From contig NZ_JAGSYD010000001.1 of assembly GCF_025685575.1 (NCBI RefSeq), forward strand, positions 1,057,852 through 1,121,851: DNA of 64,000 bases. Direction: 5' to 3'. Shown here one piece after another: positions 42,667-51,670 of this stretch. Each line of letters begins with the position of its first letter. Positions within the stretch are counted from its first letter, which is position 1. The notes below the pieces were generated by a model that made no database searches, was not told the origin of the DNA, and saw only the letters and a list, made by a program, of their open reading frames with translations. Both the position numbers and the translations under genes were made by a program. The DNA is from Granulicella cerasi. Its GTDB lineage: Bacteria > Acidobacteriota > Terriglobia > Terriglobales > Acidobacteriaceae.

Positions 42667-43368
42667 CTAAGCCTGCATCGCGCCTGAATACACAGCCATC
42701 CCCGCAACAGCATCCACGCCCATCGTATCGAGCTCATCCACCTCGGACTGCTCCTTGATGCCGCCGGCAACGATGAGCTGCTTCGCAGTGGTCGAGCGCA
42801 GAATCGCGGCGACCTCGATCGGGAAGCCCTGCATCGTGCCTTCGGTGTCTACGTGTGTGTAGAGGAACGATGAGCAGGAATCTTCGAGCCACGTCACGGC
42901 TTCTTCCGGCGTCAGCGAAACGGTGTCCTTCCAGCCCTTCACCGCGACGTTGCCGCCCTTGGTGTCGACCGAGAAGCAGAGCGCGTCTTCGCCGAGCTCT
43001 TTCTTCAGGCTCTCTGCAAACTCCAGCTTGATCAGCTTGTGGCGACGCTTCTCGCCTTCTTCTGCGGTGCCGAAGAGCGACGAGCCAAAGATCACGCGTT
43101 TGGCGCCGGCATCGAGTAGGCGCTTCGCATCCTCTACGGTGCGGAGACCGCCGCCGACCTGCACCGGCAAGCGCTTGGCGATCATCTCCACGAGCTCGCG
43201 GTTGTCGCCCTGGCGCATCGCCGCATCGAGGTCAATCAACTGCACGAGCGGATACTTCGAGAAGCGCTCGATCCAATAATCAAAGTCATCAAACGACAGC
43301 TTGAGCTTTTCGCCCTGCACCAACTGGACGATCTTTCCGCCCATCAAATCAATCGAAGGAATCAGCAT
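42667..43368 (-). CDS. hisA: ProFAR isomerase (HisA)
   Basis: 233 residues; a (beta-alpha)8 barrel that opens the ribose ring of ProFAR in histidine synthesis. The N terminus MLIPSIDLMGGKIVQLVQG holds the catalytic Asp7, and FSVDTKGGN gives Asp135. LPVQVGGGLRT and IVAGGIKE are the phosphate-binding turns. It lacks the usual VVGTAA-type strand wording but keeps the fold markers. Last gene of the his operon, separated from hisF by a small unknown gene. Confidence 0.93.
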   Translation of the reverse strand: MLIPSIDLMGGKIVQLVQGEKLKLSFDDFDYWIERFSKYPLVQLIDLDAAMRQGDNRELVEMIAKRLPVQVGGGLRTVEDAKRLLDAGAKRVIFGSSLFGTAEEGEKRRHKLIKLEFAESLKKELGEDALCFSVDTKGGNVAVKGWKDTVSLTPEEAVTWLEDSCSSFLYTHVDTEGTMQGFPIEVAAILRSTTAKQLIVAGGIKEQSEVDELDTMGVDAVAGMAVYSGAMQA

Positions 43369-43404
43369 GTAGGTAGTATCGCAGGAACACCAGAGTGGCG
43401 AGAA

Positions 43405-43659
43405 CTACTCTTCCGCAACACGCCACAGCGTGCTTGCCTCTGCCGCGAGGCTTTCCACCGGCAGGCCCTCCAGCACAACGCGCAGATCACGCTTCGCCTC
43501 TGCACTGATGGCTCCAGAGGTCTTCATCTCTTCGAGCAGCGTGCAGATCTCGTCCTCATGCTGCGCGAGTTCGCGGATCGTCATGAGCAATGCATGAAGG
43601 TGGTAGTACGCGGGTGTCATTCCCTGCGCTACGTTCGTTTCTTCGCAAGCTTTCGCCAT
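43405..43659 (-). CDS. Small protein in the his operon, unknown function
   Basis: 84 residues from the ATG at 43659, with GGAGG six bases upstream. All helical in appearance (YYHLHALLMTIRELAQHEDEICTLLEEMK). It lies between hisF and hisA in the same direction, 36 bases before hisA. It is not HisE (no PRA-PH motifs such as EExxE). No family recognised. Confidence 0.65.
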   Translation of the reverse strand: MAKACEETNVAQGMTPAYYHLHALLMTIRELAQHEDEICTLLEEMKTSGAISAEAKRDLRVVLEGLPVESLAAEASTLWRVAEE

Positions 43660-43741
43660 CGGTGCCTCCGCAAACTTGGATGCAGAAACGCGAAGGAGGA
43701 ACACGTGATGTGTTCCTCCTTCGCTTACTTCGTTTGGATCG

Positions 43742-44512
43742 CTAGCAGGGCAGCCGCATGGCGACGCCGCTACGCGCGACCTCGGCCTTCAAGGCGCGCG
43801 AATCCGTCACGCCGAAGTGGAAGATGCTCGCGGCAAGCGCTGCATCAGCCTTTCCACGCGTGTAGACCTCGGCGAAGTGCGCTGCCGAACCCGCGCCGCC
43901 CGAGGCGATCACAGGAATCTGCACGGCTTCACTGACCGCCGCCGTGAGTTCGCAATCGAAGCCGTTGCGCATGCCGTCGGTATCCATGCTGGTCAGCAGA
44001 ATCTCGCCTGCACCGCGCTGCTCGGCTTCCTTCGCCCACTCCACAACGCGTCGACCTGTCGGCTTGCGTCCGCCGCTGACGAAGACTTCTGCTTCACGCG
44101 GGTCTTTGCCTTCACGGCGCGCATCGATCGCCACGATCACCGCTTGCGCGCCGAAGTTGCCGCCGATTTCGCCAATCAACTCCGGGCGAACGATCGCGCT
44201 GGAGTTGATCGAAACCTTGTCCGCGCCCGCGTCGAAGACAGCTGCTGCATCTTCAGCGGAGCGAATGCCCCCGCCAACGGTGAAGGGCACAAAGAGCTTC
44301 TCTGCCGTGCGCTTCACGGTGTCGAGCAGCGTGCCGCGACCTTCGTGCGTCGCGGTGATGTCGAGCAGCACAATCTCATCGGCACCTGCAGCCGCATGGC
44401 GATGCGCCAGCTCCGCAGGATCACCCGCGTCGATGATGTCCAAAAACTGAATGCCCTTCACGACGCGGCCCCCGCGCACATCCAGACAAGCGATCACTCT
44501 CTTCGTCAGCAT
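43742..44512 (-). CDS. hisF: Imidazole glycerol phosphate synthase cyclase subunit
   Basis: 256 residues; the TIM-barrel partner of HisH that joins ammonia and PRFAR to give IGP and AICAR. The catalytic residues are Asp11 ([16 protein letters not shown]) and Asp130 ([11 protein letters not shown]). [11 protein letters not shown] and [11 protein letters not shown] bind phosphate. Its start codon shares one base with the hisH stop, so translation is coupled. Confidence 0.96.
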
Positions 44513-45123
44513 TAGAGCTCCAAAAAATTCTTGAGGATGCGCAGGCCAGTCTCAGCGGACTTCTCGGGGTGGAACTGCACGCCCATCACGTTGTCGCGTT
44601 CGACCGCAGCGGTGAACTCGCCGCCATAGATCGTTGCGGCAGCGGTGTCGGCGCTCAGCGGCGCGCGCCACGAGTGCGTGTAGTAAACGAAGCTGCCCGG
44701 TTCGACACCGCGCATCAGTTTCGAGTCTGCGCGCAGGTTTTCGAGCGAGTTCCAACCGACGTGCGGCGACTTCAACTCTCCGCCTTCGTGCTGGCCAGGG
44801 AAGTGCTCGCACATGCCCGCGAAGTGTCCGAAACCCAGTGTCCCGTGCGCTTCCGTGGAGCCTTCATAGAGCCACTGCAGCCCAACACAGATGCCGAAAA
44901 ACGGCGTACCCTTCACGACGGCTTCGCGTGCGGCGTCGGTGAGGCCGAGGTCGGTGAGCAGTTGCGTGGACTGGAAGTGTCCCACGCCCGGCAGCACAAT
45001 CTTGTCGGCGCGGAGCACATCCGCGCGATCTTGCGTGACGACGATGTCGTCCGCGCCGAGATGCTTCAGCGCCTTCACGACGCTGGTCAGATTGCCCGCT
45101 TTGTAGTCGATGACTGCGATCAT
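44512..45123 (-). CDS. hisH: Imidazole glycerol phosphate synthase glutaminase subunit
   Basis: 203 residues; a class I glutamine amidotransferase that feeds ammonia to HisF. The nucleophile is Cys79 in [10 protein letters not shown], and His185 with Glu187 (VQFHPEKS) complete the triad. [14 protein letters not shown] and LPGVGHF are typical. The start overlaps the vapC stop as ATGA, so ribosomes leaving vapC can restart on hisH. Confidence 0.95.
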
Positions 45124-45533
45124 GCGCGTTGGGGTCCCTTGGTCCAGTCTTCCAGTTTCAAGTTCTCGATGTTTGCAAACGCCGCGTCATTTGTGACCAG
45201 GACGAGGTCGTTTGCTAATGCGTGCGCTGCAATCATCGTGTCAAAGATGCTTAGAGGCTTCCCTTTGCGCTGTTGCTGAGCGTGAAGGGAGGCGTACTGC
45301 ACCGCGCAGGATGAAGTCCAGGCCAGGATGTCGATGCGCTGGAAAAACTGCTTCACGAGCAGATGAAGTTTTGCCTCGTCCGGCAAGCGTGCCAAGCCGT
45401 AGCGCATTTCAGCTTCGGTGATCACCGAGACGACACTGCTCGATTCAAACTGACGAAAGCGATGATCAAGAGCCGTTGAAGAACCCTTGATGAGAAAGCT
45501 CGCGATGTTGGTGTCGAGTAAGAATTGCGCCAT
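45120..45533 (-). CDS. vapC: VapC-type PIN-domain toxin
   Basis: 137 residues. A PIN ribonuclease of the VapC family, which cleaves specific tRNAs or rRNA to halt growth when not bound by VapB. The acidic site is visible: Asp7 (FLLDTNI), Glu40 or Glu42 (SVITEAEMRYG), Asp98 (SIFDTMIAAHA) and Asp116 (LVTNDAAF). The set is complete, so it should be active. It starts directly after vapB and ends overlapping hisH by four bases, embedded in the his operon. Confidence 0.92.
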   Translation of the reverse strand: MAQFLLDTNIASFLIKGSSTALDHRFRQFESSSVVSVITEAEMRYGLARLPDEAKLHLLVKQFFQRIDILAWTSSCAVQYASLHAQQQRKGKPLSIFDTMIAAHALANDLVLVTNDAAFANIENLKLEDWTKGPQRA

Positions 45534-45779
45534 CTAGAAGAGGTCTCGTTCAGGTGGAAGCGAACGATCACGCTCTGCCATGAAGTCTTCCGCGACGGGG
45601 CCGAGCTCATCACGCAGCTGAAAGAACGCGTCCCAGTCGTGTGCCTTGCGTGAAAGCACCACGTCTCCCGTTGCTTCATCTTTGCGAATGAAGACTTCCT
45701 CGCCCTCAAAACGAAACTCGCTGGGTAGCCGAACGGCCTGACTGCGGCCGTTTTTGAAGAGCTTTGCGGTCTGAGCCAT
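45534..45779 (-). CDS. vapB: VapB-type antitoxin (AbrB/SpoVT fold)
   Basis: 81 residues. The N-terminal swapped-hairpin DNA-binding domain is clear (QTAKLFKNGRSQAVRLPSEFRF, EGEEVFIRK). The C-terminal part (DWDAFFQLRDELGP, then DRSLPPERDLF) would bind and block VapC. It starts 40 bases after hisB and touches vapC. VapB-VapC complexes usually repress their own promoter, which here would lie in the short AT-richer hisB-vapB gap. Confidence 0.9.
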   Translation of the reverse strand: MAQTAKLFKNGRSQAVRLPSEFRFEGEEVFIRKDEATGDVVLSRKAHDWDAFFQLRDELGPVAEDFMAERDRSLPPERDLF

Positions 45780-45819
45780 CGTACGCCTCCATAGATGGTA
45801 TATACCGGAGTAAATACTC

Positions 45820-46449
45820 CTACAGCAAGCCTTTCGTGCTGGGCAGCAGGTCCTTCATGCGCTCGTCCTTGGAGCAGGCGCCGCGCATCGCGCGAGCGAA
45901 GGCCTTGAAGATCGCCTCGATCTTGTGATGGTTGTTGCGGCCATACATTGTCTTGATGTGGACGTTGGCCTTAGCACCACGCGCGAAGCCGTCGAAGAAG
46001 TCGGGCACGAGTTCGGTGACGAGGTCGCCGACGACCGGCGCGGTGAGTTGATCGTCCACCACGCAAGCGACGCGGCCGGAGAGATCGACCGCAGCAACGG
46101 CGAGCGTCTCATCCATCGTCATGACGAAGTAGCCTGCGCGCAGGATGCCGCGCTTGTCGCCGAGTGCTTCAGCGAAGGCCTCGCCGAGTGCGATGCCGAC
46201 GTCTTCAACGGTGTGATGCTGGTCCACGTCGAGGTCGCCGATGCACTTGAGTTCGAGGTCGAAACCGCCGTGCTTGGCGAAGCTCTCGAGCATGTGGTCG
46301 AAGAAGCGGATGCCGGTCGAAACCTTGTAAGTGCCCATGCCGTCGACGTTCAGGCGGAGGTTGATGTCCGTCTCGAGGGTCTTGCGATTGACTGTGCCGA
46401 CGCGCTCCGTGGGCTGCGTGGTGCCGAGTTCTTCGAGCATGTCGCTCAT
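45820..46449 (-). CDS. hisB: Imidazoleglycerol-phosphate dehydratase
   Basis: 209 residues from the ATG at 46449, with AAGGACG upstream. Manganese enzyme of histidine synthesis. Metal-binding histidine clusters are seen in [33 protein letters not shown] and [18 protein letters not shown]. It is the monofunctional form, without the phosphatase domain of E. coli HisB. The start overlaps the stop of the small upstream gene as ATGA. vapB follows. Confidence 0.95.
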
Positions 46450-46664
46450 CGTTGTACGTCCTTTGCTTGTCGCTCTTGAGCGACAGCTTTCTTGATTTCG
46501 ATCCCAGCCATCACTAGAAGTGAAAGCTGTGCGGCGAGCGGGGCGATTATTCGAAACTTGTGGCCTGGCAACAAGATCGGCCAACCCGCAAAGCACGCGG
46601 TTAGGGCGCAGTATATTGACGCTTTGCGCCTATGCGGATTGAGCTTTCGCTTATTCATACTCAC
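46446..46664 (-). CDS. Small membrane protein between hisC and hisB
   Basis: 72 residues; basic N terminus, then hydrophobic stretches at about 17-32 and 38-54. It overlaps the hisC stop by 14 bases and the hisB start by four (ATGA), so it is read as part of the operon. A start two codons later (46658) is possible. Function unknown. Confidence 0.6.
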
Positions 46665-47892
46665 GCTCTTCGCCGCTGGAGCGGCCCTGCGCGCTGATGC
46701 TTTCGGCTGGCGTCCACTGCATTTCGTCGAAGACCGCGCGCAGAGCGTCGAGGCCCTTGGTCACTTGATCGGCCACGCCGACGGTGATGCGCACGTAGCC
46801 ATCGCAGCCAGGATCGGCTGAGCGATCGCGCAGCAGTACGCCGTGCTCGCGCATGCGCGTGACGAGTTCCTTGTGGCGCGGACCGATGTCCATCAGCACG
46901 AAGTTCGACGCGCTGGGCCAGGTGCGGACGCCCCAGGACTTCAGCGACTGCTGAATGCGCTCGCGGCCTTCGTGGATCGCTTTCACATACCCATTGAGAT
47001 ACTCTTCGTCGGCAAGCGCTTCGGGAAGCACCTCGAGCGCAACGCCGTTGACGTTGTAGGGCGAGGCGACCTTTTTCAGGAAGTTGATGAGGCGCGCGTT
47101 GCCGGCCAACATGCCGAGGCGAAGGTTCGCAAGGCCATAGGCCTTGGAGAAGGTGCGGCCGATGATGATGTTCTTCACCGCAGGAATGTCGCGCATCACG
47201 GTCTCGCCGAAGAAGTGGAAGTACGCTTCATCGACGAAGATGACGGCCTGCGGCGCGGCGGCGGCGATGGCAAGAATGTGCTCTCGGCTCACGGTCGCGC
47301 CGGTGGGGTTGTTCGGCGTGGCGAGCAGCACCATCTTCGTCTGCGGCGTCAGCGAGGCCATCATGCGCTCGAAGGGGAAGCTGAGGTCGTCGCCCGACTG
47401 CACGCGCACGATCTTTTGCGTCTGCATGCTGCAGCTCACGTCGTACATGAAGAAGCTCGGCGTGTTGATGACGACTTCGTCATGCGCATCGAGGAACGCG
47501 CACGCGAGCAGGTGAATGCCTTCGTCCACGCCGTTGGTCAGCAGCACTTCATCAGGCTCGAGGCCGAAGTACGCTGCTGCTGCGGCATCGCCATGTCCGC
47601 GCTCGGGGTAGATGGTGAGGCCTTCCGCGGTAAGCGATTGCAGCTTCGCGAGCACGCGCGGGCTCGGCGCAACGGTGTTCTCGTTGAAGTCGAGACGCAG
47701 CAGATCGCGGCTCGCGAGCGGCGGATGATACTCAGGCATCGCGAGCACGGAGGCACGCGGCTGCACCTCGAGCGCGCGCGGCAGGTGGCTCAGGCTGTGT
47801 GCGAGTTCTGCGGCATCGTGTCCGCCCTGAGCTTGTAGTTCATCGAGCAACGACTGCGGGATGCCTCCCGCGAGCTTGGCTGCAACGCTCAT
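46651..47892 (-). CDS. hisC: Histidinol-phosphate aminotransferase
   Basis: 413 residues; PLP enzyme, fold type I. The PLP lysine is Lys250 in GRTFSKAYGLANLRLG, with Asp221 (IFVDEAYFHF) and ATPNNPTGATV nearby. It has about 45 extra N-terminal residues relative to the usual 350-360, with a helical, Leu/Ala-rich look. The start overlaps the hisD stop as ATGA. Confidence 0.94.
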   Translation of the reverse strand: MSVAAKLAGGIPQSLLDELQAQGGHDAAELAHSLSHLPRALEVQPRASVLAMPEYHPPLASRDLLRLDFNENTVAPSPRVLAKLQSLTAEGLTIYPERGHGDAAAAAYFGLEPDEVLLTNGVDEGIHLLACAFLDAHDEVVINTPSFFMYDVSCSMQTQKIVRVQSGDDLSFPFERMMASLTPQTKMVLLATPNNPTGATVSREHILAIAAAAPQAVIFVDEAYFHFFGETVMRDIPAVKNIIIGRTFSKAYGLANLRLGMLAGNARLINFLKKVASPYNVNGVALEVLPEALADEEYLNGYVKAIHEGRERIQQSLKSWGVRTWPSASNFVLMDIGPRHKELVTRMREHGVLLRDRSADPGCDGYVRITVGVADQVTKGLDALRAVFDEMQWTPAESISAQGRSSGEEREYE

Positions 47893-49151
47893 CGCATCTT
47901 CACGCGCACGCTTTCGGCGTGTCCTTTCAAGCCTTCTGCTTCGGCCAGCGCGATGGTGTGCGGGCCGACTTCCTGCAACGCAGCCTTGGTGTACTGCTGC
48001 ACGGTGATGACCTTGACGAAGTCCACCACACTGAGGCCGCCGCGCAGACGACCGTTGCGGCCGGTGGGCAACACGTGGTTCGGGCCGGAGACGTAGTCGC
48101 CCATGGACTGCGGCGTGAAGTGGCCGATGAAGACTGAGCCAGCGTTCTTCACCCAGCGCAGATCGCTGCCGCTATCGACGGTGAGGTGCTCGGGCGCGAG
48201 GCGGTTGGTGAGTGCCTGCGCTTCTTCGACGGTCTCGGTGACGAAGGCGTAGCCTTGCGCGGCGAGCGAGATGAGTGCGAGTTCGTTGCCCTCGGCCTGG
48301 CGCTGCGCTTCGGCGACGACCTGCTCGGCGAGATCGAGCTTCGAGGTGATGAAGATAGGAAGAGCTTCGGGATCGTGCTCGGCCTGCGCGACGAGGTCTG
48401 CGCCGATGCCGACTGGGTCGCCGACTTCGCTGGTCACGACGATTTCGGTGGGGCCTGCGGGCATGTCGATGCCGGTGTCTTCGCGTGAGACAGCTTGCTT
48501 CGCCGCGGTGACGTAGAGATTGCCGGGGCCGACGATCTTATCGACCGGCGCGATGGTCTCGGTGCCGTAAGCCATCGCGGCGATCGCCTGCGCGCCGCCG
48601 ACGCGGTAGAACTCGGTGACGCCGGCAAGGTACGCGGCGGCGAGTGTTTCGGTCGCGGGCTTTGGCGAGCAGACGACGATGCGCTCAACGCCTGCAACCT
48701 GTGCGGGTGTGGCGGTCATGAAGAGTGTCGAAGGCAGTGGATAGCGTCCGCCGGGGACGTAGCAGCCGACGGCGCTGAGCGGACGAATGATCTGCCCGAC
48801 CTCCATGCCTTCGGTGGGGCGGAAGCTCCACGACTTGGGCAACTGGCGCTCGGCGAAGCTGCGAATGTTCGCCTGCGCGATGCGCATGGCGGCCTTCAAC
48901 TCTTCGCTGATGGCTTCCCACGCGGCGGCCATCTCTTCGCGCGTGACCAGCAGCGGCTGGTCCTCGCGAAGACCATCGAACTTGGCGGAAAACTCACGCA
49001 GAGCGGCGTCGCCGCGTGTGCGAACGGCGTCGAGGATCTCGCGCACTACGCCGTCGACCTTGGCGGTGTTGGTTGCGCCGCGCATTTCAAGCTCGCGAAG
49101 GACGGCTTCGGTTGCTGCTGCGGATTCGCCGGTTGTCTTCAGAATCTTCAT
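47889..49151 (-). CDS. hisD: Histidinol dehydrogenase
   Basis: 420 residues; zinc enzyme that oxidises histidinol twice to histidine. Family blocks include YVPGGRYPLPSTLFMTATPA, AAMAYGTETIAPVDKIVGPGN, DMPAGPTEIVV, AQAEHDPEALPI and the C-terminal MGDYVSGPNHVLPTGRNGRLRGGLSVVDF with catalytic and metal histidines. It is preceded by a small membrane protein gene in the same direction, and hisC follows with a four-base overlap. Confidence 0.96.
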   Translation of the reverse strand: MKILKTTGESAAATEAVLRELEMRGATNTAKVDGVVREILDAVRTRGDAALREFSAKFDGLREDQPLLVTREEMAAAWEAISEELKAAMRIAQANIRSFAERQLPKSWSFRPTEGMEVGQIIRPLSAVGCYVPGGRYPLPSTLFMTATPAQVAGVERIVVCSPKPATETLAAAYLAGVTEFYRVGGAQAIAAMAYGTETIAPVDKIVGPGNLYVTAAKQAVSREDTGIDMPAGPTEIVVTSEVGDPVGIGADLVAQAEHDPEALPIFITSKLDLAEQVVAEAQRQAEGNELALISLAAQGYAFVTETVEEAQALTNRLAPEHLTVDSGSDLRWVKNAGSVFIGHFTPQSMGDYVSGPNHVLPTGRNGRLRGGLSVVDFVKVITVQQYTKAALQEVGPHTIALAEAEGLKGHAESVRVKMR

Positions 49152-49173
49152 CGTTGCTTCCTTGCTGCTGTAC

Positions 49174-49662
49174 TTAGAAACGCTTCGGACGCTTGTTCAT
49201 GCCCGGAGGCATGTAGCCGCTGGGCATCTGTGCACCGGTGCCGCGACCGGGGTTGCGCATCTGCGCATCCATCGCACGGCGTTCGACGCGGGAGCCTGTG
49301 AGCACAGCGCGCTTGGCCGACTCTGCGCTGGCGGGATAGACGCGCTTCGGGTCCTTCGGGTCGATCACGACGGGGATGCGTGCGCCGGGATTCATGTTGG
49401 AGCGTGCATCGATGCGTGTGCGCAACGAGACTTCGCGAGCCGCGGTTTCACCGGGCTCCTGCAGACGCAGCGTCACCTTGTTGAGATCGCCTTGCACCTT
49501 GCCGAACATCTTCACCGGCTCGACGGAGACGAGCGTCGCGTAGACGACGGTGCCGGTCGCATCGACCTGCTTTTGGCGACGGCGTTCCAGAAAGAAACGT
49601 ACCACCGTGACGATCGCCACCGCCAGAATGACGTAACCGAGAATTGCGAATGTTAGCTTCAT
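49174..49662 (-). CDS. Single-pass membrane protein between hisG and hisD
   Basis: 162 residues. One N-terminal membrane helix (about 4-24) is followed by a beta-rich domain (ATGTVVYATLVSVEPVKMFG, VTLRLQEPGETAARE, ARIPVVIDPKDPKRVYP). The last 40 residues are rich in Arg, Gly, Met and Pro. It resembles small DUF3592-like domains, but I am not certain. It sits in the his operon with AGAGAT repeats upstream of it. Confidence 0.65.
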   Translation of the reverse strand: MKLTFAILGYVILAVAIVTVVRFFLERRRQKQVDATGTVVYATLVSVEPVKMFGKVQGDLNKVTLRLQEPGETAAREVSLRTRIDARSNMNPGARIPVVIDPKDPKRVYPASAESAKRAVLTGSRVERRAMDAQMRNPGRGTGAQMPSGYMPPGMNKRPKRF

Positions 49663-49683
49663 GGAATGACCTCAACTGCTGGG

Positions 49684-49765
49684 AGAGATCAGAGATAAGA
49701 GATCAGAGATTGGCGTGATGCCACAGCTCTTGCGAATCTCTTATCTCTGTTCTCTTATCTCTTGC
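49684..49765. repeat. AGAGATCAGAGAT-type inverted repeat on the 3' side of hisG
   Basis: Left arm 49684-49710 (repeated AGAGATCAGAGATAAG units) and right arm 49735-49765 (AATCTCTTATCTCTG units) are imperfect inverses, able to fold. A related pair lies on the 5' side of hisG. Confidence 0.7.
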
Positions 49766-49769
49766 TTCT

Positions 49770-50645
49770 TTACAGCACTACCTTGCTTAGCGGGAACTCG
49801 ACGATACCCGTTCCGCCAGCGGCCTTCAGCTTCGGCACGATATCGCGCACGGTGTGCTGCTCGAGGATCGTGTTCACCGCGACCCAGTTCTTGTCACGCA
49901 GTTCGGAGACCGTCGGTGAGTTCAGCGCGGGCAGCACGTCGAGCACGGCGTCGAGGTTCGTCTTCTCCACGTTGAGCATCAGGCCTATCTGGCTCTGTGC
50001 GGCCATCGCGCCGTTGAGCATGAGCGAGAGCGTCTCGATCTTCTTACGCTTGAACTCGTCCTGCCATGCCGCCTTGTTCGCGATGAGTTGCGTTTCCGAC
50101 TCCATCAGCACTTCGATGATGCGCAGGCGGTTCGCGCGTAGCGAACTGCCGGTCTCGGTCACTTCGACGATCGCATCGGCGAGCATCGGCGGCTTCACTT
50201 CGGTCGCGCCCCAGCTGAACTCCACCTTCACCGGGATGTTGCGCTCGGCGAAGAAGCGCTTCGAGTACTCCACGAGTTCGGTCGCGATGGTCTTTCCGGC
50301 AAGGTCTTCGGCCTTCTGATAGGGCGAGTCTTCGGGCACGGCGAGCACCCACTTCACCTTGGTGCGGCTGGCCTTCGAGTAGGTGAGCGAGGTAACGCGC
50401 TCGACGTCAGCGAGGTTCTCGAGGATCCAGTCATTGCCGGTGAGCCCTGCATCCAGAGCGCCGGTCTCGACGTAGCGGGCCATCTCCTGTGCGCGGACGA
50501 GCATGCACTCGATCTCGGTGTCGTCGATCGACGGGAAGTACGAGCGGCCGCTCGCGTAGATGTTCCAGCCTGCGCGCGCGAACAGCGCGATCGTTGCGTC
50601 CTGCAGACTGCCCTTTGGAATGCCCAGCTTCAGCTTCTTGCTCAT
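49770..50645 (-). CDS. hisG: ATP phosphoribosyltransferase (long form)
   Basis: 291 residues, with the C-terminal regulatory domain of HisG-long. It catalyses the first, histidine-inhibited step. The N terminus [23 protein letters not shown] is typical, as are [13 protein letters not shown] and the phosphate loop near [18 protein letters not shown]. Unlike the short form it needs no HisZ. Both gaps beside it carry AGAGAT-type repeats. Confidence 0.95.
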
Positions 50646-50746: not shown

Positions 50747-51085
50747 TTACGCGATCGGCTTCGTGAAGCAGCTCACCGTGCCTTCGTGGCAGACAAGGCC
50801 ATCGCCTTCGACCTCTACCTTGAAAAGCAGCGCGTCGTTGTCGCAGTCGGTGGCGGTGGAGACGATCTTCAGGCGGTTGCCGCTGGTCTCGCCCTTCATC
50901 CAGAGCTTGGAGCGGGTGCGCGACCAGAAGGTGACGAAGCCGGTCTCGAGCGTCTTCTGCCAGCTCACATCGTTGAGGAAGCCGAGCATGAGCACTTCGC
51001 CGGTCTTGGCGTCCTGCACGATGCCGGCCACAAGGCCGCCGGCCTTTTCAAAGTCAATCTTCACTGCGGTGTCTACTGCGGTCAT
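50747..51085 (-). CDS. hisI: Phosphoribosyl-AMP cyclohydrolase
   Basis: 112 residues; opens the purine ring of PR-AMP using zinc and magnesium. Visible motifs are EVLMLGFLND, TFWSRTRSKLWMKGETSGN, and STATDCDNDALLFKVEVEG with GLVCHEG, which hold the metal-binding Asp and Cys residues. It is the single-domain form: the HisE domain is not fused, and no hisE is in the window. It is the first structural gene after the His-rich leader. AAGGAC precedes the ATG. Confidence 0.94.
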   Translation of the reverse strand: MTAVDTAVKIDFEKAGGLVAGIVQDAKTGEVLMLGFLNDVSWQKTLETGFVTFWSRTRSKLWMKGETSGNRLKIVSTATDCDNDALLFKVEVEGDGLVCHEGTVSCFTKPIA

Positions 51086-51149
51086 CGTCTTTGTCCTTAT
51101 TCGCTGCGTGGCTTGAGGTGGATGCTTCCGTTTTCAGTCGCCGCGCAGC

Positions 51150-51188
51150 AAAAAGCCCGCTCGCTGAAAGAATTCGCGGAGGCGGGCT
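51150..51188 (-). terminator. his operon attenuator terminator
   Basis: On the minus strand AGCCCGC pairs with GCGGGCT around a middle that can add further pairs, and TTTTT follows at once. It lies 42 bases after the leader peptide stop and 65 bases before hisI, the place expected for an attenuator. Confidence 0.8.
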
Positions 51189-51230
51189 GCTCGGTGTGTG
51201 TTGCTAAACCTGTCTGGAGTCTTGAGGCAT

Positions 51231-51314
51231 TTACTTCGCCAGGCCGGACAGTACCGATCGCCCACTCGCGTGGTGATGATGGTGGTGTCCGTGATGGTGG
51301 AGGCCAAGGCTCAT
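51231..51314 (-). CDS. hisL: Histidine operon leader peptide
   Basis: A 27-residue reading frame, MSLGL followed by HHHGHHHHHH and a short tail ending GLAK. Nine of 27 residues are histidine, nine of them within a run of ten codons. It stands upstream of hisI and before an intrinsic terminator, the classic layout of ribosome-mediated attenuation. When charged tRNA-His is scarce, a ribosome would stall in the run and favour the read-through fold. The start codon is chosen by position. A visible SD is weak (GAG at 6-9 bases). Confidence 0.88.
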   Translation of the reverse strand: MSLGLHHHGHHHHHHASGRSVLSGLAK

Positions 51315-51670
51315 GACTTACCACTCTAGGCTAGAGCGGATGCGCCCGCGATGTCAATGTCGCCGGTGCGAACTTTTTCCTTGAGAACCGAACTCTGCGT
51401 CGAATGCGGATCTCTCGTTGGCGAAACTTCGCTCGGGGGAACTCCGTTGGCCGAGCGTACTGTTCTTTGCACCCTCCCTGGGTGGAGGCATCGGATGCCT
51501 GCGATTGAACTTCGCGATGTCTCAGCAGGCAACGTGTTTGCGCGTCAAAAAAAAACGCGCCGGTGGCGGTGAGGTGAAAGCGATCGCGCTCATTCGCGAC
51601 TCGTACGCTTGCCGGGCGCAAACATTTGCATCTCTCTTCATGAGCGGCCACTGCCGCAGGGAGATTCGGG
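51315..51670. other. Region upstream of the his leader
   Basis: 356 bases between divergent genes. It holds the his promoter candidate at 51328-51357 and a run of nine A at about 51548. Several short ORFs cross it on both strands, but none has a convincing start or codon pattern. Confidence 0.6.
51328..51357 (-). promoter_or_regulatory. Candidate promoter of the his operon
   Basis: On the minus strand TTGACA (51357-51352), an 18-base spacer, then TAGCCT (51333-51328). It would start transcription only a few bases before the leader ATG, so the leader RNA would be nearly leaderless. Confidence 0.45.

Follow-up and report, generated by a model that had tools for sequence, protein, structure and literature searches.

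Leader-peptide attenuation is a principle long known in the control of gene expression, and the his locus of Granulicella cerasi raises the question of whether a member of the Acidobacteriota uses it to control the synthesis of histidine. The locus lies within a stretch of 64,000 nt (contig NZ_JAGSYD010000001.1, positions 1,057,852 to 1,121,851, assembly GCF_025685575.1), referred to here as the window. The original prediction, made from this DNA alone, was of a histidine-rich leader peptide and attenuator ahead of the his operon. We find that conserved His codons, hairpins and covarying helices argue for this reading. Judged in silico, the element is with high likelihood a ribosome-mediated transcription attenuator by which the his operon responds to the level of charged tRNA-His, and it very probably senses histidine shortage. 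We infer from these data that the leader is translated, that ribosomes stall on it and that transcription stops at the terminator, and likewise where transcription starts and how the element answers to histidine.

A histidine-rich frame and a terminator precede hisI

The 27-codon frame with nine His codons in ten is present on the minus strand where the prediction had placed it. His accounts for nine of the ten codons from 51299 to 51270, with one Gly codon as the sole interruption. When the 4.08-Mb genome was scanned for the pattern CAYCAYNNN(CAY)5, the single match was the His run of the leader, and the same pattern read backward gave 0 matches in the 4.08 Mb. The intrinsic terminator with a T5 run that had been proposed ahead of hisI is present as well (51188-51154, with T5 to 51150), and RNAfold assigns its hairpin -18.4 kcal/mol. 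This hairpin is absent from a simple terminator scan because its apical part lies beyond the loop limit of that scan. The coordinates of these and other features are collected in the table below. Within the operon itself, a VapC-like PIN-domain ORF (45120-45533) sits on the operon strand in the gap between hisB and hisH, and a 162-aa ORF (49174-49662) in the gap between hisG and hisD has no Pfam or NCBIfam family at E 0.001.

Table. Features of the putative his attenuator and of related leaders. Positions are those of the window unless a locus (L) or family (f) is named.
Feature	Position	Strand	Details
-35 element TTGACA, predicted leader promoter	51352..51357	-	From sequence; TTGAC conserved at the matching place
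-10 element TAGCCT	51328..51333	-	18 nt after the -35 element, 13 nt before the leader ATG
Leader peptide ORF	51231..51314	-	27 codons, MSLGLHHHGHHHHHHASGRSVLSGLAK; ATG at 51314, stop TAA 51233-51231
Regulatory codon run	51270..51299	-	CAC CAT CAC GGA CAC CAC CAT CAT CAC CAC
Protector hairpin (segments 1:2), CCAC-GCGA-GUGG	51262..51273	-	From fold; last His codons and start of segment 2
Segment 2, predicted antiterminator 5' arm, GUGGGC-GA-UCGG	51254..51265	-	Pairs with segment 3, z -0.6
Segment 3, predicted antiterminator 3' arm, CCGA-GCA-GCCCGC	51182..51194	-	Overlaps the terminator 5' arm
Intrinsic terminator hairpin (segments 3:4)	51154..51188	-	AGCCCGC (51188-51182) ... GCGGGCU (51160-51154)
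T run TTTTT 3' of the hairpin	51150..51154	-	From sequence
hisI, first structural gene of the operon	50747..51085	-	NCBIfam PRK00051.1, E 1.7e-38
Remainder of the his operon	42667..50645	-	hisG, 162-aa ORF, hisD, hisC, hisB, PIN ORF, hisH, hisF, hisA
Mixed Trp/His leader of f36	L147 5204-5245; L148 5259-5300; also L200-L212		WHWHH and HWHVHH types
Tandem His leaders of f19	L123 8928-9008 and 8688-8819; L122, L176, L177		Before hisG
Families with a His leader (19)			f1, f2, f5, f7, f8, f17, f19, f20, f23, f25, f26, f27, f29, f30, f35, f46, f48, f60, f69

The leader and the terminator are conserved ahead of hisI

We searched two sets of hisI loci for the same leader, defined as a frame upstream of hisI with at least five His codons per ten-codon window. 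The first set was drawn from 40 relatives and the genome of the window itself, where hisI was found in 34 of 41 genomes and 30 of the 34 matches were kept as loci; the second comprised the best 80 of 336 matches in named public genomes. Together these give 110 loci (30 + 80), among which nine pairs are the identical place in both sets. A His-rich frame lies upstream of hisI in 109 of the 110 (the second set being the best 80 of 336 matches), corresponding to 100 distinct loci. The exception, L026, has an upstream sequence of only 269 nt and was excluded from every leader count. Relatives that carry the leader include Terriglobus roseus, Granulicella rosea, Edaphobacter modestus, Bryocella elongata and Terracidiphilus gabretensis. 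By an RNAfold scan, a terminator-like hairpin with a T-rich tail stands before hisI in 100 of 100 distinct loci, and the distance from the leader stop codon to the terminator stem is 26 nt in the median (range 16-49; 93 loci). Close relatives lacking the His run or the terminator, the outcome that had been named as speaking against the original prediction, did not appear.

Codon use within the runs was analyzed in 93 loci, the same as those used for covariation below, after exclusion of seven loci from another family (L023-L025 and L027-L030). Of 872 codons in these His runs, 677 encode His (393 CAT and 284 CAC), compared with a CAC:CAT ratio of 80:20 in the hisI genes of the same loci (Fisher p 5e-13, with the loci being related). 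Since both codons are used in the runs, it is the amino acid rather than the bases that is conserved. At the level of sequence and conservation, the putative leader is thus a short frame rich in codons for the cognate amino acid, and it is followed by a predicted intrinsic terminator between the frame and the first gene, two of the features by which attenuators are recognized.

Competing helices covary among relatives

The loci were sorted by their segment 2 motif into two groups with a common plan. In group A this plan is CAUCAUCAUGC-NNNNN-GCGUGUUGGCGG with the terminator arm CCGCUGACGCGC, and in group B it is CAUCAUCAUGG-NNNNN-CCAUGCCGGCGG with the terminator arm CCGCCGGCG. In both groups the His codons and the codon that follows them can pair with segment 2 in an interrupted helix, the protector, and segment 2 can pair instead with the 5' arm of the terminator to give the antiterminator. 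The peptide encoded by these leaders is conserved beyond His, with HHGHHHHH followed by SVLAAVSG or MPADC tails. Most of the conservation of the tail (SVLAA, MPAD) can be attributed to the tail overlying segment 2; VSG of group A is conserved, yet it lies outside segment 2, and overlap with the RNA arm gives no explanation for it.

We tested these helices for covariation twice, with shuffles that keep the relatedness among loci. The first test used a structure-blind MAFFT alignment of the 93 loci, a structure taken from the single member L002 and 300 shuffles. The protector was 95.0% paired with 61 double-change cells (shuffles mean 10.8, max 38), the antiterminator 86.1% paired with 51 (mean 25.8, max 38) and the terminator 85.5% paired with 59 (mean 29.7, max 46). 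When the partners were slid by 1-3 columns, pairing was 10-62% for the protector, 31-48% for the antiterminator and 34-52% for the terminator. The antiterminator slid by +1 gave 54 double-change cells, more than the 51 observed, at 31% paired, and further pair types showed no excess over shuffles in the 93-locus alignment.

The second test applied a pair counter to 48 diverse loci (of 65 representatives) with 500 shuffles. Here the antiterminator was 84.8% paired, with 29 double-change cells vs 13.1+-4.2 in shuffles (0/500) and a covariation score of 0.226 vs 0.160 (0/500). Slid versions of this helix were 31-49% paired, the +1 slide giving 25 double-change cells vs the 29 observed. For the antiterminator in the 48 loci, pairs changed on both sides (64/500) and further pair types (35/500) were not significant. 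The protector and terminator together were 86.6% paired with 56 double-change cells vs 21.9+-5.5 (0/500); neither the pairs with changes in both partners (14/500) nor the additional pair types (176/500) counted as significant for these two helices in the 48 loci.

Further support for the plan is provided by RNAalifold of group A (51 loci) and group B (33 loci), which left out six loci outside the two groups and three of the subclade to which the window belongs. The protector and terminator emerged unaided, and with the 3' arm of the terminator blocked the helix between segments 2 and 3 appeared in both groups. Compared with shuffled tails, the antiterminator duplex ranked at or below 5% in 76 of 100 loci, and its mean energy was -24.8 kcal/mol for cognate and -22.2 kcal/mol for non-cognate partners. 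Folding of the leaders for competing forms, the check proposed with the original prediction, thus points to covarying protector, antiterminator and terminator helices in the relatives; for the set a competing antiterminator is indicated, with some measures not significant, and the antiterminator of the window is weak when taken singly.

In the window and its two nearest relatives, L004 and L005, the register of the antiterminator is shifted from the consensus of the relatives. The duplex in these three loci was not significant against shuffled tails (z -0.6, -0.1 and +0.6, respectively). At the place of the window's protector L004 has CCAU-AUGA-GUGG, and relatives carry an equivalent covarying hairpin. 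By homology and the common plan, which in our judgment outweigh their own statistics, the window, L004 and L005 are members of the set as a subclade.

A proposed model for attenuation at the his operon

In the mechanism that we propose, a ribosome would start translation at the 5' end of the nascent RNA, or close to it, and read the 27-codon leader. When His-tRNA is ample, the ribosome would pass the His codons and move toward the stop codon. Near the stop, segment 2 would lie beneath or just behind the ribosome, or be back in the protector, and with segment 2 occupied segment 3 would pair with segment 4, leading to termination ahead of hisI. When His-tRNA is short, the ribosome would stall on the His run and disrupt the protector formed by the His codons and segment 2. 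The freed segment 2 would then capture the emerging segment 3 to form the antiterminator, and RNA polymerase would continue into the his genes.

We examined this switch with a half-transcribed model, in which arm 3 has been transcribed and arm 4 has not yet, and asked how probable it is that upstream RNA holds arm 3. Placing the ribosome on the first five His codons in turn gave a mean of 0.58, with 58 of 93 loci above 0.5. Once the ribosome had reached the stop codon the mean was 0.14, with 1 of 93 loci above 0.5, a drop that is partly built into the model because all RNA upstream of the ribosome is omitted. The corresponding values for the window are 0.82 (first five His codons) vs 0.34 (stop codon), with 0.56 and 0.04 at the eighth and ninth His codon. 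In the window ~20 nt separate the end of segment 2 from the stop codon, and segment 2 may be covered only in part by a ribosome that is terminating. In the model lacking a ribosome, arm 3 is held at a mean of 0.55 (0.81 in the window), which resembles the stalled state; since arm 3 is held even then, the protector is predicted to be too weak to force termination when the leader is not translated.

When the full-length leaders were folded at equilibrium, the antiterminator prevailed in 5 of 93 loci with the ribosome on the first His codon, in 31 with it on the middle one and in 8 with it on the last. In the window, full-length equilibrium folding gave the antiterminator in none of the ribosome states, and the terminator dominates. 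As a test of the switch, this approach gave way to the half-transcribed model, since the terminator mostly wins in every state; the half-transcribed model favors a switch, in part through its construction. The switch would have to be kinetic, as it is in known attenuators.

The leader mRNA is predicted to begin at or near its start codon

Sequence upstream of the leaders suggests where their transcription starts. TTGAC occurs at the -35 place in 89 of 100 distinct loci vs a mean of 0.1 (max 3) in 200 mononucleotide shuffles. In 79 of 100 distinct loci the leader start is preceded at 7-10 nt by a TTGACA/TAnnnT pair, counted at >= 8 of 12 matches; the 200 shuffles gave a mean of 0.6 and a maximum of 5. 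Among the 94 distinct loci with a TAnnnT box the gap from the box to the leader start is 8 or 9 nt in 71. The leader start is ATG in 95 of 100 distinct loci. Shine-Dalgarno matches before the leaders are poor, with 5 of 6 bases in 4/100 and 6 of 6 never, and no Shine-Dalgarno sequence precedes the ATG of the window leader. A box spacing of 8-9 nt would place the transcription start at or within ~2 nt of the ATG, and the leader mRNA is therefore predicted to be leaderless in most relatives. The 13-nt gap in the window would leave a 5' UTR of ~6 nt, which makes the window an exception in degree, with a leader mRNA predicted to be nearly leaderless. For comparison, 9.7-19.4% of genes were predicted to be leaderless in three Acidobacteria (PMC3160421).

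His leaders are found in many families of the phylum

To look beyond the hisI loci, we sampled 198 genomes across the phylum, in 126 of which hisG was found. A further 60 his loci and then 20 more, chosen around his genes and totaling 1.07 Mb, were scanned for short frames in which five or more of eight codons are His. This yielded 42 His-rich frames (41 distinct, with L180 repeating L129). For 34 of them the first his gene found lies within 450 nt downstream, and the remaining 8 precede his genes by inspection. Four frames (two each in L123 and L176) were missed by the distance rule because a hisC-like match lies further upstream, and these frames precede hisG. The frames in L136, L137, L142 and L143 precede a HisZ-like gene that itself stands before hisG, with its identity assigned by NCBIfam TIGR00443 in L136 (below the cut-off) and L142 (above it) and by eye in L137 and L143.

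Overall, a leader is present in 20 of the 37 families judged, 19 of which have a His leader (listed in the table) and one, f36, a mixed leader; f12 and f4 were not judged. In f25 the His leader was found in one of four genera, and the leaders of f7 and f30 have four His in eight codons. No leader was found in 17 of the 37 families judged. A rescan of 31 no-match loci (four His of eight, or HHH, in up to 1.8 kb, with 73 nt available in one locus and 484 nt in another) gave one remote HHH frame only; the leader of f36 lies further upstream, and such a rescan can thus miss distant leaders. Rfam models applied to eight his loci, seven lacking a leader and L148 with its mixed one, matched one tRNA only. 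In the other families the antiterminator duplex had a z of -2.0 or lower in 8 of 25 leaders with a terminator; for some of the leaders, L119, L120 and L144 among them, the hairpin finder had settled on a late or questionable hairpin. L124, L125 and L129, also from other families, have a His leader and no T-run terminator in the scan; these leaders may use Rho or act on translation.

A covariance model built from 48 loci, R1, matched the element in 110 of 150 family genomes, training genomes included and with some of the matches weak. We checked 20 of the 40 R1-negative genomes: hisI is missing from 17, a contig end truncates the upstream region in 2, and 1 has a divergent leader (L198, MSRSYHHDLHHLHELHACGQP) with its own promoter boxes and terminator. 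The 57 sources searched with R1 include 34 leader loci outside its training set; R1 matched the leader in 22 of these with an E of at most 0.01 and in six further ones with an E of at most 0.15. Its best match off a leader was E 0.083 (L027), and on 22 control loci the best was L147 at E 0.016, the rest being E 0.86 or worse. Common descent of the leaders across families is suggested by these matches; it is not established, since R1, with its CAY run and GC-rich terminator, may also catch convergent elements. As a separate observation, hisG was not found in 72 of the 198 sampled genomes, and 12 of the 17 family genomes with neither attenuator nor hisI have a completeness of 95% or more; auxotrophy for histidine may be widespread.

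Alternative explanations for the His-rich frame

We considered whether the frame could instead encode a small His-rich peptide that has an independent function, for example in binding Ni, Zn or Cu, and stand before hisI incidentally. The peptide is conserved beyond His, including the VSG part of the tail that is not over segment 2, and leader peptides can act in trans, as described for peTrpL (PMC7298713). Against such an independent role, all 42 His-rich frames in the 1.07 Mb precede his genes (in loci chosen around his genes), 17 of the 20 family genomes checked that lack the element also lack hisI, and much of the conserved tail overlies segment 2, which covaries with its RNA partner. We therefore consider this explanation highly improbable. 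That a run of His codons came by chance to lie next to an ordinary terminator is so improbable that it can practically be dismissed: CAY runs can arise randomly, and the window leader folded alone is unexceptional (z -1.29; 21 of 200 shuffles equally stable), whereas conservation, the single occurrence in the genome and covariation are not what chance predicts. A metal-binding small protein and a chance run were both rejected as main readings. A T-box riboswitch was rejected as well, the window region being without any Rfam match.

It is also very unlikely that control acts at another level and that the hairpin has only an auxiliary part, be it in Rho-dependent termination or in masking of the ribosome-binding site of hisI. 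The three His leaders lacking a T-run terminator in the scan (L124, L125 and L129) would fit such a mechanism. It is opposed by the hairpin and T-rich tail that follow the stop codon in every distinct hisI locus, and by the double role of the terminator 5' arm, which is also the partner of the antiterminator. Transcription attenuation by a translating ribosome is the reading that we retain.

Other loci of the same genome were compared. Stretches around trpE, hom, pheS and hisS showed no cognate leader by rough codon thresholds, and a search of the genome with the LeuA_dimer family found no gene, so leuA was outside this comparison. A His/Pro-rich frame, MLVLTGCPHHHHDHYPPPPPPPHHDDGPPPPPPPR, occurs ~200 nt before the trpE match (L192 1190-1297). 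As a leader it was set aside by judgment only; it has a lipobox-like start and resembles a small lipoprotein-like ORF.

Mixed and tandem leaders

In family f36 the leader combines Trp and His codons. The leader of L147, MIFISRHWHVHHS, has a TTGACA box 33 nt before its ATG and is followed in order by an aroD-aroE fusion (PF01487, PF08501), a HisZ-HisG fusion and hisD. The HisZ-HisG fusion (L147 6460-8532), tested in L147 only, carries PF13393 and PF01634 in one 690-aa frame. The aroDE protein was found in 13 of 14 f36 genomes, with in-frame stops in four of the 13 matches, and the mixed leader precedes aroDE in 13/13 loci from 7 genera. These leaders have 13-14 codons, with one GTG start, and near their end three or four His codons are interspersed with one to three Trp codons (e.g. 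RHWHVHHS, LWHWHHG and SWHWHWHHG). The TTGACA box is 30-34 nt ahead of their start codons, and in 13/13 loci the leader is followed by a hairpin that has a T-rich tail. The two loci read further, L147 and L148, have his genes downstream of aroDE. The antiterminator duplex, exemplified by TCGTCCGAGGG with CCCTCGGACGA, had a z of -2.0 or lower in 5 of 11 correctly scored loci (range -2.7 to +0.2); in L201 and L202 the finder chose an earlier hairpin, and later hairpins with T runs are present. From its codons and position, the f36 leader would be a two-input attenuator and a possible new variant. TGG has no synonyms, so RNA constraint is inseparable from Trp sensing in f36. We found no description of a tryptophan-and-histidine leader in the literature searched.

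Family f19 has two His-rich leader frames in tandem in four genomes, the second frame of L177 having four His in eight codons. It is possible, if somewhat short of probable, that an old, phylum-wide leaderless his attenuator has been repeatedly rewired, giving the two-input (Trp/His) leader of f36 and the tandem attenuators before hisG of f19.

Discussion

The element of the window resembles the enteric his attenuator in its proposed working and has the features of leader-peptide attenuators that can be read from sequence. The two also differ. The E. coli his operon begins with hisG, unlike that of the window, where hisI is first. Unlike the enteric his attenuator, the predicted antiterminator arm of the window lies inside the leader ORF, and the promoter boxes of the relatives predict a leaderless leader mRNA. 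Rfam RF00514 (His_leader) had no match at gathering score in the window and, in a search run without a positive control, no match in 51000-51450 up to E 10. The likeness to E. coli and Salmonella lies in a short leader with a His run and a competing antiterminator and terminator before the his operon (PMC1183508).

Attenuators with His leaders are described in Firmicutes, in the B. cereus group, the C. difficile group and Erysipelotrichales and for hisZ and hisS* of bacilli (PMC9413887, PMC2965389). With these systems the window shares a His-rich leader peptide, a terminator and an antiterminator, a likeness of plan drawn without comparison of the RNAs; unlike the Firmicutes leaders, which have three to five His in a row, it has nine in ten and belongs to another phylum. 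A frame at or near the 5' end of the RNA is a feature in common with Streptomyces TrpL and LeuL and with Sinorhizobium meliloti trpL (PMC8079986, PMC7298713). Unlike the element of the window, these leaders carry codons for Trp, Leu and others rather than His, and their RNA ends were mapped whereas those here are predicted.

The original prediction also held that such an element had not been described in Acidobacteriota. Recent work on his regulation covers Proteobacteria and Firmicutes, with no mention of Acidobacteria in its main text (PMC9413887), and a comparative study of Actinobacteria reports no attenuators before his operons (PMC1262725). A large listing of leader genes includes Acidobacteria in general (PMC4833913). 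In a 2010 survey, hardly any of the attenuators predicted for Acidobacteria and other such phyla could be linked to a function (PMC2965389). We found no earlier description of a his attenuator in Acidobacteriota in the literature searched, the coverage of which is incomplete, and the claim fits that literature.

If the proposed mechanism is correct, one of the predicted attenuators of Acidobacteria would now be given a concrete sensor, signal and target, with leaders in 20 of the 37 families judged. Much of the conserved peptide tail overlies an RNA arm, which is a useful warning for the annotation of small proteins. In f36, if the two-input reading is true, a shortage of Trp or His alone would open both pathways, and the mixed Trp/His leader makes this specific hypothesis testable. 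Acidobacteriota are abundant in soils, and the leader found here would extend leader-peptide control of histidine synthesis to this phylum.
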